The notes under the pieces are model-generated. The model did no database searches, was not told the DNA's origin, and worked only from the letters and a program-made list of their open reading frames with translations. A stretch of DNA of 64,000 nt, from positions 434,001 to 498,000 of the forward strand of contig NZ_FODT01000003.1 in assembly GCF_900110435.1 (NCBI RefSeq), written 5' to 3'. The stretch is from Rhodopseudomonas pseudopalustris. Lineage in GTDB: Bacteria; Pseudomonadota; Alphaproteobacteria; Rhizobiales; Xanthobacteraceae. Both the position numbers and the translations under genes were made by a program. Of this stretch, positions 14,889-20,461 are shown in pieces. Every line of letters begins with the position of its first letter. Within the stretch, counting starts at the first letter, position 1.

Positions 14889-14914
14889 GAAGCTCCGGCC
14901 GAGACCGGAGCTTC
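14889..14914 (-). terminator. Rho-independent terminator for the outer membrane protein gene
   Basis: A perfect 10-bp stem, GAAGCTCCGG / CCGGAGCTTC, with a 6-base loop is followed on the minus strand by TTTTTAT. It lies 56 bp beyond the stop of the gene at 14970-15683. Confidence 0.9.
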
Positions 14915-14969: not shown

Positions 14970-15683
14970 CTATCGGCCGTTGAAGCGATAGTTGAGCTTC
15001 AGCGCCAACACGTCGAGATCCTGCCGGATCCGGTAGATATCGCCGGTCAGCGCGAAGGCGACGTCGCGGCTGCCGAGGAAAACGTGATTGTACTCGGCGG
15101 CGACCGATATGTGCTCCGAGAACGCCAGTTCGAGGCCGGCGCCGACCGTCGATCCCCAGCGGGTTTCCGAGGCGTTGGTGAAAGTGATGCCGGTGTCGGT
15201 GGCGAACACGTCGTATTTCTCCTGCACCACGCCGGCGCCGCCCTTGACGTAGAGCAGCGCGTTGTTCGGCGCGTAGCCGAACCGGCCGTTGATCAGACCG
15301 AAGGCGTCGATCAGCGTGCGGTTGGTCTGGTTGGCGAACAACAGGCTGTCGCTCGTACCGCGCGCCCGTCCCCAGTCGCCCTGCGCCTCGACGCCGAACA
15401 CCCAGCTTCCGACCTGATAGTCGAAGCCGACCTGCACGCCGCCGAACAGGCCGGTGAAATTGTGTGCGCCGTCGTCGCCGGTCGGCAGCAGCGGGCCGAA
15501 ATAATCCCAACGCTTGTCGGAGAGCACGGCGCTGCCGTTGATGCCGATATAGACGCCGGTCCAATTATAGAGTGCCGGCACCGGCGGCGCCGCCTTGAGC
15601 GGCAGATCCGCGGCGAACGCCGGCGACGCCGCAGCCAGCGCCAACAGCCCGACCGACCCGAACAACCATGATTTCATCGTCAA
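14970..15683 (-). CDS. Outer membrane beta-barrel protein (Omp25/Omp31-like)
   Basis: 237-aa protein with a Sec signal peptide (MTMKSWLFGSVGLLALAAASPAFAAD, cleavage near 24) and the classic start of alphaproteobacterial Omp25/31 proteins: LPLKAAPPVPALYNWTGVYIGINGSA. The rest is alternating beta-strand sequence, for example VQVGFDYQVGSWVFGVEAQGD, and it ends DVLALKLNYRFNGR. It is likely an 8-strand outer membrane porin-like protein of unknown cargo. It is downstream of the cytochrome-porin fusion and HiPIP genes on the same strand, with 124 bp between, and is followed by a strong terminator. Whether it works with the electron-transfer genes is unknown. Confidence 0.85.
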   Translation of the reverse strand: MTMKSWLFGSVGLLALAAASPAFAADLPLKAAPPVPALYNWTGVYIGINGSAVLSDKRWDYFGPLLPTGDDGAHNFTGLFGGVQVGFDYQVGSWVFGVEAQGDWGRARGTSDSLLFANQTNRTLIDAFGLINGRFGYAPNNALLYVKGGAGVVQEKYDVFATDTGITFTNASETRWGSTVGAGLELAFSEHISVAAEYNHVFLGSRDVAFALTGDIYRIRQDLDVLALKLNYRFNGR

Positions 15684-15807: not shown

Positions 15808-17436
15808 TCAGAACAGAATCGTCGAGTAGACGATGAAGGTGTTCTTGTCGTGCGGCGTCGCCGTGTCGCCGTCGAACTTGGTGTAATAGAAGTACTGCAC
15901 GCCGACGCGCGTGTTGAACCACGGCCAGTATGGCGACTTGCTGGTGCCGAACGGCAGATAAGCGAGTTCAGCCATGAAGCCGGTGGTGTCCGGCACGTTG
16001 CCGGCATTGGCCGCATAGAGTCCGATGTCGGGCGTGCCCCAGGTCCGGAAATACTGCCCGGTCGCCACCACGCGATTGTCGCCGCCGATCGCGACCGTCG
16101 AGCTCACCCGCAGCGTGTTCAACCCGTTGGTGAGGTTGGCGGGCTGCACCGCCGAGGTCCATCCCGCATCGTAGCGCTGATCTTCGCGGATATAGGCCGC
16201 CTTCATGATGACCCAGTAGTCGGCGCCGCGATATTGGTACTGCGTATCGACGCCGTAGTCGGTGTATTTGTTGGTCATGCCGTAGGACGATTCCCCGACG
16301 ATCGTCGGATCGCCGTTGAACGCCCAGGGATAGACTTCGAACCGGCTGGCGAAACCGCCGACCATCAGATTGTGGTCGCCGAAGCGCTGTTCGAGCGCGA
16401 TGCGCCCATAGGGCGCGATGCCGGCGATCTGGCCCGGGCCGCCGAGCGGATCCGCGCCGAGACGCTTGGTGGCGTTGAAGCCGAGCGTCTTGTAGCCGGT
16501 GGCCTCGAGATACAGCATGTCGTTGATGAACAGATAGCCGCCGACGCCCCCGACGCGTTGGCCGTAGGGTCCGTCGATGACCGTGGCGGCAGCAGGCCCG
16601 GTGAAGCCGAGCTGGGTGGTGAAATAAGGATGCGTCCAGGCCGGCGCGGTGTTCCAGACGTCCTGCACTGTCGGATTGTTGTGCGCGGTGATGCCGAACA
16701 GCACATCCACGCCGGCAATCTGCCCGGCGGTGGCATAGCGCACGTCGACATTGTCCCAGGTCCAGACCCCCGCCGGATCGGCGATCCCCGGGAAGGCGTA
16801 GGTGAGCTGCGCAAAGACGCCGACATTGTCGCTCATCGCGCCGCCGGCGAACAGGCTGGCCTGGGCCATTCCGACGTTGTCGTTCGCCTTCCACTGATTG
16901 ACGCCCGGGGTCCAGCCCGGATCAGGCGCCTGGGTATGGGTGGAGCCGGCGATCAGCATCACCGCGAGCGGCGGCAACCAGCCGGGATCTTCTTCGGCCT
17001 GCGGTTGAACGGCCGCGAATGAACTGTTGATCGCCTGCTGCGCGCTGCCCTGCGGCGGCTTCCTGAGCTGATCGCCAGAGCCGGACGTCGTCTCGGCGTA
17101 GGAGCGCAGCTCGGCGACGGCATCCTTCGGGGCGCTCCCCGGCGCGAGCACGCTGTTGAAGTCGCTGACGGTCGGGAACACCTTGCCCGACGGCGGGATC
17201 GGAAACAGCGTCTTGCGGAACGGACCGCCGCCCAGCGTGTAGCCGCCAAGCTTGAAGCGCCGCCCGAACGGCGTCAGTCCGAGCACGTCGGTGTGGCAAT
17301 TGCCGCAGGGCTGTCCCGTCTGCCGGGCGAATAGCGGCAGCGCCTGAGCGGACGGCGTCGTCGTCAGGAAAGCGACCCAGACGGCCACGCTCGCCGCCGC
17401 AAACGCCAGCACTCCGGAGATCGTCCCGGTCTTCAT
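15808..17436 (-). CDS. Fused monoheme c-type cytochrome / outer membrane porin (Cyc2-like)
   Basis: 542 aa from the ATG at 17436, which gives a good Sec signal (MKTGTISGVLAFAAASVAVW to about 32). The mature N-terminus has one heme-binding CGNCH (44-48) in LPLFARQTGQPCGNCH, followed by GLTPFGRRFKLGGYTL. The remaining ~470 residues are alternating beta-strand sequence, such as VGVFAQLTYAFPG, YWVIMKAAYIRED and RVGVQYFYYTKFDG, ending with a C-terminal aromatic (IVYSTILF), as outer membrane barrels do. A one-heme domain fused to a porin is the plan of Cyc2, the outer-membrane iron oxidase of iron-oxidising bacteria; the ARQTG-CxxCH and FGR-FK-GY pattern matches what I recall of that family. The HiPIP gene lies just upstream, consistent with a periplasmic partner. 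Function is inferred. Confidence 0.75.
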   Translation of the reverse strand: MKTGTISGVLAFAAASVAVWVAFLTTTPSAQALPLFARQTGQPCGNCHTDVLGLTPFGRRFKLGGYTLGGGPFRKTLFPIPPSGKVFPTVSDFNSVLAPGSAPKDAVAELRSYAETTSGSGDQLRKPPQGSAQQAINSSFAAVQPQAEEDPGWLPPLAVMLIAGSTHTQAPDPGWTPGVNQWKANDNVGMAQASLFAGGAMSDNVGVFAQLTYAFPGIADPAGVWTWDNVDVRYATAGQIAGVDVLFGITAHNNPTVQDVWNTAPAWTHPYFTTQLGFTGPAAATVIDGPYGQRVGGVGGYLFINDMLYLEATGYKTLGFNATKRLGADPLGGPGQIAGIAPYGRIALEQRFGDHNLMVGGFASRFEVYPWAFNGDPTIVGESSYGMTNKYTDYGVDTQYQYRGADYWVIMKAAYIREDQRYDAGWTSAVQPANLTNGLNTLRVSSTVAIGGDNRVVATGQYFRTWGTPDIGLYAANAGNVPDTTGFMAELAYLPFGTSKSPYWPWFNTRVGVQYFYYTKFDGDTATPHDKNTFIVYSTILF

Positions 17437-17518
17437 CCTGATCTTCAAATGCGCTACGTATGTCAAATTCCGCCCCGATAAAATATAGTGTTCAATCACC
17501 AGCTGCGGGCTCGCAGCC

Positions 17519-17565
17519 CCGTAGGGCTACGGCCGCAACGTTTGGTCGTCCTCGCGCGAGGCGAC
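17519..17565. other. Two stem-loops between the HiPIP and cytochrome-porin genes
   Basis: CCGTAGGGCTACGG (17519-17532) and a larger hairpin at 17545-17565 (arms GTCG-T-CCTCG and CGAGG-CGAC) lie in the 133-bp gap after the HiPIP stop. Neither is followed by a T run, so they look more like mRNA-processing or stabilising structures than terminators. Confidence 0.6.
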
Positions 17566-17569
17566 GAGC

Positions 17570-17857
17570 TTAGGCCTTCGCGACAAACAGCGAACACCAG
17601 CCGTTGGCGCTCACCGTCCCGTCGATCACCTTGCAGGTGCTCGATGCCACAATGTAGTTCGTGCACTTTCCGCAGGTCTGGCCGCTGCGCGGCGAGGCCT
17701 GATATTGCGCGGCGGTCTTGGCCATTCTGCTCTGGGCCAGAACCTCACTGCCAGTCAGCCCGACGATCGCGGCGGCGCCGACAGCCCCCGCAGCGACCTT
17801 GAACATGTCGCGGCGAGATACTTCCAGAGAACACACTTCACGCGTTGTTTTGGTCAC
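17570..17857 (-). CDS. High-potential iron-sulfur protein (HiPIP), Tat-exported
   Basis: 95-aa protein. A twin-arginine signal, SRRDMFKV (14-21), precedes a hydrophobic stretch ending near ALAQ-type residues (VLAQS, 39-43). The mature part has the four cluster ligands of HiPIPs: Cys62, Cys65, Cys75 and Cys88, with the GWCSLF ending. HiPIPs are small periplasmic one-electron carriers with a [4Fe-4S] cluster. The start is GTG at 17857, supported by an excellent GGGAGGAAG just upstream; the ATG two bases before is out of frame. It lies 133 bp upstream of the cytochrome-porin fusion on the same strand. The pair resembles PioB/PioC or Cyc2/Iro arrangements in iron oxidation. Confidence 0.93.
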   Translation of the reverse strand: MTKTTREVCSLEVSRRDMFKVAAGAVGAAAIVGLTGSEVLAQSRMAKTAAQYQASPRSGQTCGKCTNYIVASSTCKVIDGTVSANGWCSLFVAKA

Positions 17858-18377
17858 ATCTTCCTCCCAGTATGGTCAGGTCTTTTTTATGTGGATTTGT
17901 TGTTGGACGACCGGCCGCTCGTTGGCAGACGATAATCGTTGTCAGTCCATACCAGTCGCCGATCTGGCGAAGAGCGCGCGTTAGTTTCTTGTACGGCTTA
18001 CTAATCAGCGCGCATGGCGATCAGATCATTCACAACTACTCATCATCAATGATTCAGACCAAACGTCAATGGAATTGTCACCATTTCACCACTTTGTTGC
18101 CAAAGTGCTTCACATCACTTCCTCTCTGATACTTACGTAGTGCCGCCCGATGCAATTGCGATTTATTCGCACTCGCATGGCGTCATGAAGATGGATGAAT
18201 CAGTCACTACGAACTCGCGGCTCACCCGGGTCAAGGCGCTCACAGCATCGAGATGCAGGTTCTGATCTGATAGTGGACACTGCTCACAGCGACGAACCGC
18301 ACGACCGCACTGAACCGCGAGCGCTGATGGTTCACACTCGAAGACGCCCAGAACTAATCGCAAGCATCCGGATCAAC
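17858..18377. other. AT-richer upstream region of the HiPIP gene
   Basis: No convincing gene. It is clearly less GC-rich than its surroundings and should hold the promoter of the HiPIP/cytochrome-porin genes. Two dyads are visible: ACGATAATCGT at 17929-17939, about 72 bp before the HiPIP start, and CACTTTGTTGCCAAAGTG at 18090-18107. A 66-codon open frame on the minus strand (18163-18363) has no recognisable features. Confidence 0.5.
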
Positions 18378-18422
18378 GCAGGCTCGATCGACCTGAGCAT
18401 CGCCCAGGTCGACCGAGCCTGC
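18378..18422 (-). terminator. Long hairpin downstream of the autotransporter gene
   Basis: An 18-bp stem with one mismatch, GCAGGCTCGATCGACCTG against CAGGTCGACCGAGCCTGC with a 9-base loop, sits 24 bp beyond the stop. It has no T run on the minus strand, so it may be an mRNA 3' end stabiliser or an inefficient terminator. Confidence 0.6.
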
Positions 18423-18426
18423 GCTT

Positions 18427-18449
18427 TATCAGAACCGGAAAAGCTCTAG
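18427..18449. repeat. CTAG-bounded dispersed repeat, 23-bp remnant
   Basis: Matches the right end of the 107-bp elements at 14738 and 28227: TATCAGAACCGGAAAAGCTC followed by TAG. Its CTAG (18446-18449) supplies the TAG stop codon of the minus-strand autotransporter gene. Confidence 0.8.
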
Positions 18450-20461
18450 AACTGATAGCCGATCGATACGCGGGCGTCGAAGCCGGCGCTGGCGTTGTCG
18501 CCGCGGATGGCATTGATGCCGGCCTTGAAGGTCGCGGCGTCCTGACGGGCCGCAATGGCGAAGCCGGCCCTGACGAGGTTGCGGCTGTCATAGGCCGAGA
18601 CCTGGCTCACGGTGTAGCCGTAAAGCGCGGCGGTGGTTTCGACGCTCGGGTTCGACAGCGCGCGTTCGTAGCCGAGCGAGAGAGACGGCGCGATCTGCCA
18701 GCCGTAGACCTGACGCGGATCGAGCGCGACGTCGAGCCCGGCGATCGCGCTCGTCGCCGTGTAGCCGATGCGATCCACCGCCAGCGCCAACTCGCTGCCG
18801 CGCTCCTCGATACGGCCGAGCCCGACGCGGGTGGCGCGCAGGCCGAGCTGCGGGGTGAACGTCCACTGCGCCGCGCGGATCACGCTGCCGATATCGGCGC
18901 GGCCGCTGACGACGCCGCCCGACGCATCGCCGCTGGTTCCGCCGAGACCGCCGCCGAGGATTCGGCTGCTGTGATCGGTGAACCAGCCGACGCTGGCCCG
19001 CGCCTCTGCAAACGGGCCGGCGTCGAGGCTGGAGAGCCCGTAGCGGCCGCCGAAGGTCGCCAGCATGGTGTCGAGATCGGCCCTGCCGCCGGCGCTGCTG
19101 ACCGAACCCGCATTGTAGCCGACGCCGACAAAGGCGCTGCTCTGCGCATCGATCCGCCAGGTGACGCCCGCCAGCGGCCCGCCGCTTCGTTCGATGCTCC
19201 GCGACACCCCGCTTCCGCCATCGGAGCTGAAGTAACCGCCGACGCCGGCCAGCCAAGCTTTGGTCTCGCCGACGCCGAGGTCGCGACCGCTGGCGTTGGG
19301 CGCCAACGCGGCGTCGATCCACAACGGCTGGCGCGCCAGGAAGGCGACCGTGTCGGCATGGAGTTGCCCGCCGACCAGGCTCTCGACGCCGCCGAGCGTG
19401 CCTGCGTCGACCGCCGACTGTAGATAATAATTGAAGGCGGTGTAGCGGCCCGACAGCGGCGAGTTCTGCAGCGCATTGAGCAGTGCGGCGCCGGACGCCG
19501 CGTTGCCGGTCATACCGTCCTGCCCCGGCAGGTTCGCGAAGTACACCATCTTGGCGCGCAGCACGTAGATGTCGGCCTGGGTGAGCCCGAGGCCTTGTAT
19601 CAGATACGCCTGCATCGATCCGTATTGCGCGACGATCTGCGCAAGCCCGGCATGGAGATAGCTCTCCTGCACGCCGAGCATCGTCGCCGCAGTCGCCACC
19701 GCCAGATCACCCGCGGGACCGTTGCCGACCGCCGCACGGATCTGCGCCAGAGCGGCGCTGATCGACTCCGCCATATAGATATTCGAGGCGAGATAGGCCG
19801 TCAGAATGGTCTCGGGCGCGACTCCGGCGATGCTCTGCAGCAGCATCGAAGTCCAACCGGTGCGATCCTTGCCCGCGGCGCAATGGAACAGCGCAGCCGA
19901 GGGCTCGTTGGCGAGCGCGAGCAACGCCGAGCGGAAGCCTCCGCGCTGCGTCGCGTCGCTGACAAAATTCTGATAGGTCGCGATCAGATAGGCCGACGCT
20001 TCGCCAGGAGTCGCGACCGACGCGCTCGAAGGCGGCGCGTAGGTTCCGTAGATGTTGACGTTGATGTAACGCGCTCCGGCCGGCAACCAATCGTGACCGG
20101 CATTCGGAGCCGTGATGCTGGTCGGCCCGTCGATCTCCGACGGAGTCCGCAGATCGACGTCGAGTCCGATCCGAAGCGACGACAGCGTGCGCCAATCGGT
20201 CGTGGACAGCGTCGTCAACGCCTCGGAGCGATAGAACACGCCGGTCCGCATCGCGCCGCCATGCGTGGTCGGATCGACGAAGCCGCTGCCGCCGGCGTTC
20301 TCGGAAATTCCGGCGAGGTCGCGGAAATTCTGATCGGTGGCCAGAATCGGCGTCGTGATCGCCTGCTGCGCCAAGGCCGGCGAAGCCGACGCGCTCAGCG
20401 CCAGCGCGGCGCTCCACAGCATCGCGATCCGCCTGGACGGGGCAAGAGTCATGCGCTGCAT
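18446..20461 (-). CDS. Tyrosine-phosphatase / autotransporter beta-domain fusion protein
   Basis: 671 aa from ATG 20461 (GGAG 9 bases upstream). It has a signal peptide ending ASPALAQQ (about 32), then a Y_phosphatase3-type protein tyrosine/serine phosphatase domain (about 38-300). The domain starts NFRDLAG, carries DLRTPSEI (about 103-110) and the P-loop FHCAAGKDRTG with nucleophile Cys194 and Arg200. The last ~270 residues are glycine-rich alternating strands ending VSIGYQF with a C-terminal Phe, the hallmark of an autotransporter barrel. The phosphatase would thus be carried through or displayed on the outer membrane. It stands alone, followed by a hairpin. The target (host, neighbour cell or phospholipid/inositide) is unknown. 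Confidence 0.85.
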   Translation of the reverse strand: MQRMTLAPSRRIAMLWSAALALSASASPALAQQAITTPILATDQNFRDLAGISENAGGSGFVDPTTHGGAMRTGVFYRSEALTTLSTTDWRTLSSLRIGLDVDLRTPSEIDGPTSITAPNAGHDWLPAGARYINVNIYGTYAPPSSASVATPGEASAYLIATYQNFVSDATQRGGFRSALLALANEPSAALFHCAAGKDRTGWTSMLLQSIAGVAPETILTAYLASNIYMAESISAALAQIRAAVGNGPAGDLAVATAATMLGVQESYLHAGLAQIVAQYGSMQAYLIQGLGLTQADIYVLRAKMVYFANLPGQDGMTGNAASGAALLNALQNSPLSGRYTAFNYYLQSAVDAGTLGGVESLVGGQLHADTVAFLARQPLWIDAALAPNASGRDLGVGETKAWLAGVGGYFSSDGGSGVSRSIERSGGPLAGVTWRIDAQSSAFVGVGYNAGSVSSAGGRADLDTMLATFGGRYGLSSLDAGPFAEARASVGWFTDHSSRILGGGLGGTSGDASGGVVSGRADIGSVIRAAQWTFTPQLGLRATRVGLGRIEERGSELALAVDRIGYTATSAIAGLDVALDPRQVYGWQIAPSLSLGYERALSNPSVETTAALYGYTVSQVSAYDSRNLVRAGFAIAARQDAATFKAGINAIRGDNASAGFDARVSIGYQF

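Follow-up and report, generated by a model that had tools for sequence, protein, structure and literature searches.

Can a Rhodopseudomonas genome in which no PioB porin gene is found encode a means of taking up electrons at the outer membrane? The question is raised by a locus of R. pseudopalustris lying in a 64,000-nucleotide stretch of contig NZ_FODT01000003.1 (positions 434,001 to 498,000, referred to here as the window), which encodes a Cyc2-like fused monoheme cytochrome-porin, a HiPIP, and a small outer-membrane protein (OMP). The analysis described below points to a pio-independent, three-gene electron-uptake module in which electrons from Fe(II) or another soluble donor would pass through Cyc2 to the HiPIP and from there to the reaction centre or an oxidase, a reading on which we are evenly divided.

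A preliminary description of the window had assigned ARQTGQPCGNCH and GLTPFGRRFKLGGY to one protein with a single heme site and a terminal Phe. Both do lie in the Cyc2-like protein, whose 542 amino acids (aa) contain one CXXCH (CGNCH) and end in STILF. The heme site is preceded by ALPLFARQT, which agrees with AXPXFAR[Q/K][T/Y], a motif stated to be unique to Cyc2 (Keffer 2021, PMC8406198; published work is drawn on in excerpt throughout) and exact in 60 of the 90 rows compared here. The family screen in that paper comprises a CXXCH, PXFAR[Q/K][T/Y], and a length of at least 365 aa; the window protein has one CXXCH, the PXFAR[Q/K][T/Y] motif, and 542 aa, and by these published screening criteria, its sequence is that of a Cyc2 homologue. 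No Pfam or NCBIfam match was obtained at E values up to 1 and no PDB match by sequence at E values up to 10. Profile A1 matched the heme region in many genomes, with heme-only E values down to 5e-13, and no named validated Cyc2 was among the sequences retrieved. Mostly short open reading frames (ORFs; ∼70-200 aa) in genomes of the family, among them L007, L008, and L010, match the Cyc2 heme region only and are barrel-less.

An AlphaFold2 model of the protein was built on a 68-row alignment that includes 67 of the best 80 titled loci, a partial list comprising the best 80 loci from one profile scan of genome contigs. The model (mean pLDDT 81.0, pTM 0.81) comprises 16 strands, each 9-17 residues long, plus a 3-residue strand; three short helices surround the heme site, and a low-confidence linker lies at about residues 71-153. 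A signal peptide is suggested by the hydrophobic N terminus of the sequence and a helix at residues 5-26 of the model, from which it was read without a predictor. The best PDB matches returned by Foldseek were porins (OmpT of Vibrio cholerae, OmpF, and others), with target-normalized TM scores of 0.29-0.61 among the top 50 and the phosphate porin OprP, the fold named for Cyc2 (PMC8406198), at rank 35. The signature motif, the 16 model strands, and the porin folds together bear out the Cyc2-type architecture proposed at the outset.

All three genes lie on the minus strand and are ordered HiPIP, Cyc2-like, and OMP in the direction of transcription, followed by a strong terminator-like hairpin (Table 1). 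A terminator scan revealed no strong terminator-like site between the three genes, a weak 6-pair site being present at the end of the Cyc2-like gene. A single transcript is therefore likely, and the genes probably constitute one operon, in which the promoter-like sites are consensus matches only. The coordinates reported earlier are correct, the span 15808-17859 taking in the Cyc2-like and HiPIP genes. The pair itself is likewise borne out, but the proposed two-gene minimum is not, as an OMP gene (PF13505, 69.2 bits) and the terminator behind it had been overlooked, and the OMP gene follows Cyc2 in three of four related loci. These four, termed focal here, are the window locus, those of G001 and G010 from the same genus, and that of G020 from another genus. 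The start codon of the Cyc2-like gene is uncertain, with GTG at 17499 picked by the ORF finder and ATG at 17436 giving the 542-aa form. The possibility of a chance or artefactual ORF was ruled out, because the neighbouring genes and a Cyc2 of 74.5-79.8% identity recur in the three other genomes.

Table 1. Features of the HiPIP-Cyc2-OMP locus, in window coordinates
Feature	Position	Strand	Details and source
HiPIP gene	17570..17857	-	95 aa; starts with GTG; Tat signal of RR type; ∼54-aa mature part with four Cys; first in unit
Cyc2-like fused monoheme cytochrome-porin	15808..17436	-	542 aa from ATG 17436; GTG 17499 alternative start
Cyc2 signature ALPLFARQT, motif AXPXFAR[Q/K][T/Y]	17317..17343	-	Sequence compared with motif in PMC8406198
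Single CGNCH heme site	17293..17307	-	Sequence
Low-confidence linker from heme domain to barrel, residues 71-153	16978..17226	-	AlphaFold model
Predicted 16-stranded barrel, residues 157-541	15814..16968	-	AlphaFold model, porin folds
Outer-membrane beta-barrel protein (OMP_b-brl), third gene	14970..15677	-	PF13505
Intrinsic-terminator-like hairpin, 11 pairs and T-run, 3' of OMP gene	14889..14914	-	Terminator scan

The genomic setting bears on how such a module might be used. Reaction-centre L and M genes were present in all 16 genomes of the genus and also in G020. A Cyc2 match was found in 3 of the 16 and a true PioB (452-553 bits) in 6. Two further genomes of the genus barely pass the PioB cut-off at 23 bits; these matches represent a different protein, because the same profile positions give weak second matches in pio genomes. 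No PioB porin gene was found in the window genome, in which the PioB search gave only a 20-bit, sub-cut-off match to another protein, of a kind that genomes with a true PioB also contain. No PioA decaheme cytochrome lies beside the operon, although the genome itself was not searched for PioA. At E values up to 0.1, the window genome (G000) and G001 each contain one HiPIP, the Cyc2-linked one, and G010 contains the Cyc2-linked form, a PioB-linked form, and a third. The PioB and HiPIP searches therefore indicate that G010 has both systems and that G000 and G001 have Cyc2-HiPIP without PioB.

The HiPIP partner upstream of Cyc2, noted in the preliminary description, was supported by a PF01355 match of 26.8 bits (cut-off 22) and by four cysteines of the mature protein (Cys62, Cys65, Cys75, and Cys88); an additional residue of the precursor, Cys9, precedes the Tat signal. 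Export by the Tat pathway is upheld in part. The RR motif is plain and is kept in all four focal HiPIPs, but the PF10518 score of 19.0 bits falls below the 22.7-bit cut-off. Against the Iro model NF041615, the protein scored 63 bits, under the equivalog cut-off of 100, and so was not identified as Iro; its best PDB match by sequence was PioC (E = 2e-7). In form, it is compact, like PioC and other Cyc2-linked HiPIPs and unlike the second, divergent type of HiPIP in the genus, to which Rpal_4085 appears to belong, judging from the extended form of that type. In a 36-row HiPIP tree, separate clades were recovered for the four focal proteins (100/97), six PioB-linked proteins (98/99), and six proteins of the divergent second type (100/100). 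This tree rests on 76 columns, and 18 of its 33 inner forks are open, including those relating the focal and PioB-linked clades to other Cyc2-linked HiPIPs. On this tree, the separate clade of PioB-linked HiPIPs speaks against orthology of the window HiPIP to PioC. With no PioB in the genome beyond the 20-bit match and a HiPIP outside the PioC clade, the locus is distinct from PioABC, as had been proposed.

Comparison with other Cyc2 loci showed that the focal loci differ from most of their relatives in their electron-transfer partners. In a survey of the family, 44 of 391 genomes matched the Cyc2 profile, several in the heme region only. Genes for c4-like diheme cytochromes were present at 24 of the 27 other family loci (OMP at 20, HiPIP at 5), frequently in the order c4, Cyc2, OMP, c4, c4, but were absent from the vicinity of all four focal loci; no further gene for a CXXCH protein longer than 80 aa was detected within the 18 kb examined around the window locus. 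Among the best 80 titled loci, 21 had a HiPIP gene no more than 2 kb from Cyc2; in 16 of these it was within 300 bases, and 15 lacked a c4-like gene in the same 2-kb range. Of the 80, 38 had c4-like genes and 27 had neither partner, and in 24 Cyc2 was immediately followed by an OMP gene. Such counts may miss partners lying beyond contig ends, since at least 3 kb of contig on both sides was available for 17 of the 21 HiPIP loci and 32 of the 59 others. Examples of a HiPIP adjoining Cyc2 in this set include Rhodoblastus, Methylocapsa palsarum, and M. acidiphila. The pairing itself is not new, because it has been published for Bradyrhizobium, where Cyc2 is encoded with a HiPIP and three periplasmic cytochromes c (Percak-Dennett 2017, as described in He 2017, PMC5566968), and because it recurs in these 21 loci.

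In a 90-row Cyc2 tree that includes 75 of the best 80 titled loci, the four focal proteins formed a single clade (SH-aLRT 100, stem 0.86) nested in a 28-row, mostly c4-type family clade (95). This tree was made by a quick method and merits moderate trust. The label "HiPIP only", assigned with a partner cut-off of 1500 bases (2000 bases in the counts above), required 8 changes on the tree, compared with a mean of 18.3 when shuffled. Heme and barrel are 103-110 residues apart in the four focal proteins, compared with a maximum of 75 across the 86 other rows.

Other loci in the scan were observed as follows. On a plasmid of Acidithiobacillus ferrooxidans YQ-N3, L227 (2704-4071) encodes a 455-aa Cyc2-like protein (AIPAFAAQTGEPCSACH) annotated as hypothetical, with a c-type cytochrome gene downstream, and a match with equal scores is present on an Acidiphilium cryptum plasmid. 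Two contigs from metagenome-assembled genomes, L160 (titled Burkholderiales; c4-Cyc2-OMP-c4) and L168 (titled Gemmatimonadaceae; with OMP), encode proteins 43 and 50% identical, respectively, to the window Cyc2-like protein; misbinning is possible, because their Cyc2 loci resemble those of Bradyrhizobium.

Inspection of the surrounding genes revealed the order ECH-SDR-TetR-thiolase-ACS-TolA-[OMP-]Cyc2-HiPIP in the window, G001, G010 (where OMP is absent), and G020. The Cyc2-HiPIP pair thus occupies an equivalent site in four genomes of two genera. ACAD was found at E values up to 1e-200 in 11 of the 16 genomes of the genus, and loci were fetched for 8 of these, all Cyc2-less. An amidase gene lay between TolA and ACAD in all eight, 83-100% identical to the query copy (itself one of the eight), and no Cyc2, HiPIP, or OMP match was found between TolA and ACAD in any of them at E values up to 1e-6. 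Recent mobile acquisition is not supported; that the operon genes share one site across two genera makes ancient inheritance followed by loss the likelier history. An amidase gene also lies upstream of the HiPIP gene in G001, G010, and G020 (Pfam Amidase on the G010 copy) and was not found at window positions 17858-18446. Adjoining the operon at 18446-20461 (minus strand) is a gene for a Tyrosine phosphatase family domain (PF13350) fused to an autotransporter beta-domain (PF03797), and a fusion gene of the same kind, with 68% identity, is near the G010 locus.

If the three genes operate as proposed, dissolved Fe(II) or another small reductant would enter the 16-stranded outer-membrane barrel and reduce the single c-type heme at its periplasmic mouth. 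The heme would then pass its electron to the co-encoded, Tat-exported HiPIP, which in the light may reduce the photo-oxidized reaction centre in the manner of PioC, the carrier of electrons to the light-harvesting-reaction-centre complex (LH-RC) in R. palustris TIE-1 (PMC10304953). In the dark, a c-type cytochrome or an oxidase would be the acceptor, and the small OMP may serve the unit as an accessory barrel. For the Mariprofundus Cyc2, which is reduced by Fe(II), the potential is 208 mV and the heme domain is predicted to form a periplasmic plug (PMC8406198); the A. ferrooxidans protein hands electrons to rusticyanin (PMC10654088). Within this Fe(II)-to-Cyc2-to-HiPIP sequence, substrate specificity appears to be the weakest part. 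A more specific form of the proposal, in which pio-less Rhodopseudomonas would have a second, pio-independent route of photoferrotrophy with Cyc2 feeding its own HiPIP and the HiPIP feeding the reaction centre directly, the HiPIP replacing the diheme cytochromes of chemotrophic relatives and the heme pocket and linker being changed to suit, is put forward tentatively, and we lean against it.

A number of observations weigh against the electron-uptake module. After CXXCH, the Cyc2 consensus has PXL, which is outside the published inclusion screen and whose proline is thought to help hold the heme (PMC8406198); the window protein and all four focal proteins have LGL. The function of cluster 3 Cyc2, one of the three clusters in which the window protein may fall, was called the most uncertain by the family's authors (PMC8406198), and cluster 3 is also filed by FeGenie under possible iron reduction. 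Rpal_4085, another HiPIP found in TIE-1, is unable to reduce the reaction centre, which has been attributed to its surface and potential (PMC10304953). Phototrophic Fe(II) oxidation was not observed for the Rhodopseudomonas of a photoferrotrophic co-culture, which may or may not carry this operon (Schmidt 2021, via PMC8302410). No FixK/FNR-type box common to the upstream regions of the four focal loci was found. Reaction-centre genes were not found in G096, G418, G471, and G599 or in the records of L184, L187, and L225, all of them HiPIP-only, and were found alongside c4-type Cyc2 loci in five g49 genomes (G355, G368, G390, G399, and G401).

The altered heme motif has a parallel elsewhere. PXL is kept in 79 of the 90 rows and absent from 11, with Leu replacing Pro in seven, namely the four focal proteins and three from other HiPIP-only alphaproteobacteria (L182, L183, and L185), which represent two lineages. 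That the loss of PXL accompanies a HiPIP-only partner suggests co-adaptation, a pattern resting on these two events. In the second lineage, the heme region shows a separate Pro-to-Leu change and also a Leu before the Y of the YAR motif.

Respiratory Fe(II) oxidation in the dark at low oxygen, with electrons from Cyc2 and the HiPIP ending at a terminal oxidase, as they do in chemotrophs that have Cyc2, and the reaction centre uninvolved, is unlikely, but draws on the same comparisons. Seven of the 12 tested genomes with a HiPIP and no c4-like gene near Cyc2 have no reaction-centre genes, and a HiPIP adjoins Cyc2 in several lineages whether phototrophic or not. By contrast, reaction-centre genes are present in all four focal-clade genomes, which also stand apart from most of their family in the absence of diheme cytochrome genes near Cyc2; outside this clade, a single HiPIP-only genome, that of the M. 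palsarum record L204, has reaction-centre genes. A HiPIP-only partner as a marker of phototrophy is ruled out by the seven HiPIP-only and five c4-type exceptions, because of which the choice of Cyc2 partner is not considered to be generally tied to phototrophy. Rhodoblastus is a phototrophic genus, and L184 and L187, records titled Rhodoblastus, gave no reaction-centre match.

A different redox couple served by the Cyc2 fold, whether another donor or an outward flow of electrons (humic substances, a poised electrode, or Fe(III) reduction), seems quite unlikely. Cyc2 homologues occur in bacteria not known as iron oxidizers, for which other roles were weighed by He 2017 (PMC5566968), and the FeGenie category, the LGL heme neighbourhood, and the long linker of the focal clade are compatible with such a couple; the positive potentials of HiPIPs (500-50 mV, PMC7462912) would fit inward flow better. 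Handling of metal stress in the periplasm, with Fe(II) or other metals oxidized for protection rather than growth, was proposed for Rpal_4085, which is overexpressed with divalent metals in TIE-1 and cannot feed the reaction centre (PMC10304953), but is improbable for a HiPIP of the compact form that groups outside the divergent second type of the genus. That the locus is a neutral relic or plain porin, dispensable and with its heme unused, would suit the patchy presence of Cyc2 in the genus and the absence of OMP from one focal locus, but is highly improbable given the intact reading frames, the identity and neighbours conserved across two genera, and a heme site invariant in the alignments made.

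If the electron-uptake module works as proposed, Cyc2-based phototrophy would extend beyond Chlorobium and the proposed Acetobacteraceae to the genus that includes TIE-1, the model photoferrotroph, where a HiPIP would be the carrier, and an inference on Rhodopseudomonas in the commentary PMC12366326 would fail for pio-less strains carrying cyc2. Setting the HiPIP-only focal clade against relatives with diheme partners would also be a natural way to learn what Cyc2 hands its electron to. No report of Cyc2 in Rhodopseudomonas was found by title or opening of the abstract in the literature searched, whose coverage mostly excludes subscription journals.

Among known systems, the Cyc2 cluster of the related genus Bradyrhizobium likewise combines a Cyc2 homologue with a HiPIP, but the window locus, without the three cytochromes c, differs from it in having no other CXXCH gene (above 80 aa, in the 18 kb examined) and in its long linker and LGL. 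With the Cyc2 proteins of Mariprofundus ferrooxydans PV-1 and A. ferrooxidans (PMC8406198), the window protein shares the signature, the single CXXCH, 16 predicted strands, and a length above 365 aa; those proteins have tested iron-oxidizing activity, whereas the window protein is known from sequence and model and was compared by description. PioABC of R. palustris TIE-1 (PMC10304953, PMC6831781), from the same genus, also unites an outer-membrane barrel, heme, and a periplasmic HiPIP feeding the reaction centre, as would be the case here, but its porin and its decaheme cytochrome are two proteins (PioAB), in contrast to one fused monoheme protein with a HiPIP of another clade. In photosynthetic Acetobacteraceae (PMC10715153), also compared by description, Cyc2 is likewise present in purple alphaproteobacteria, electrons from iron are proposed to reach periplasmic carriers, and HiPIP is discussed; Cyc2 in those bacteria frequently neighbours a mono- or diheme cytochrome, and the excerpted text describes no HiPIP-Cyc2-OMP operon. 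Photoferrotrophic Chlorobium (PMC8302410) provides a precedent for Cyc2 in an Fe(II)-oxidizing phototroph, but belongs to the green sulfur bacteria, and the excerpt describes no HiPIP operon. The parts of the window locus are thus of known kinds; what is distinctive is a reaction-centre genome with no PioB found and this as its sole detected HiPIP, a focal clade with no diheme cytochromes near Cyc2, and a linker of 103-110 residues.

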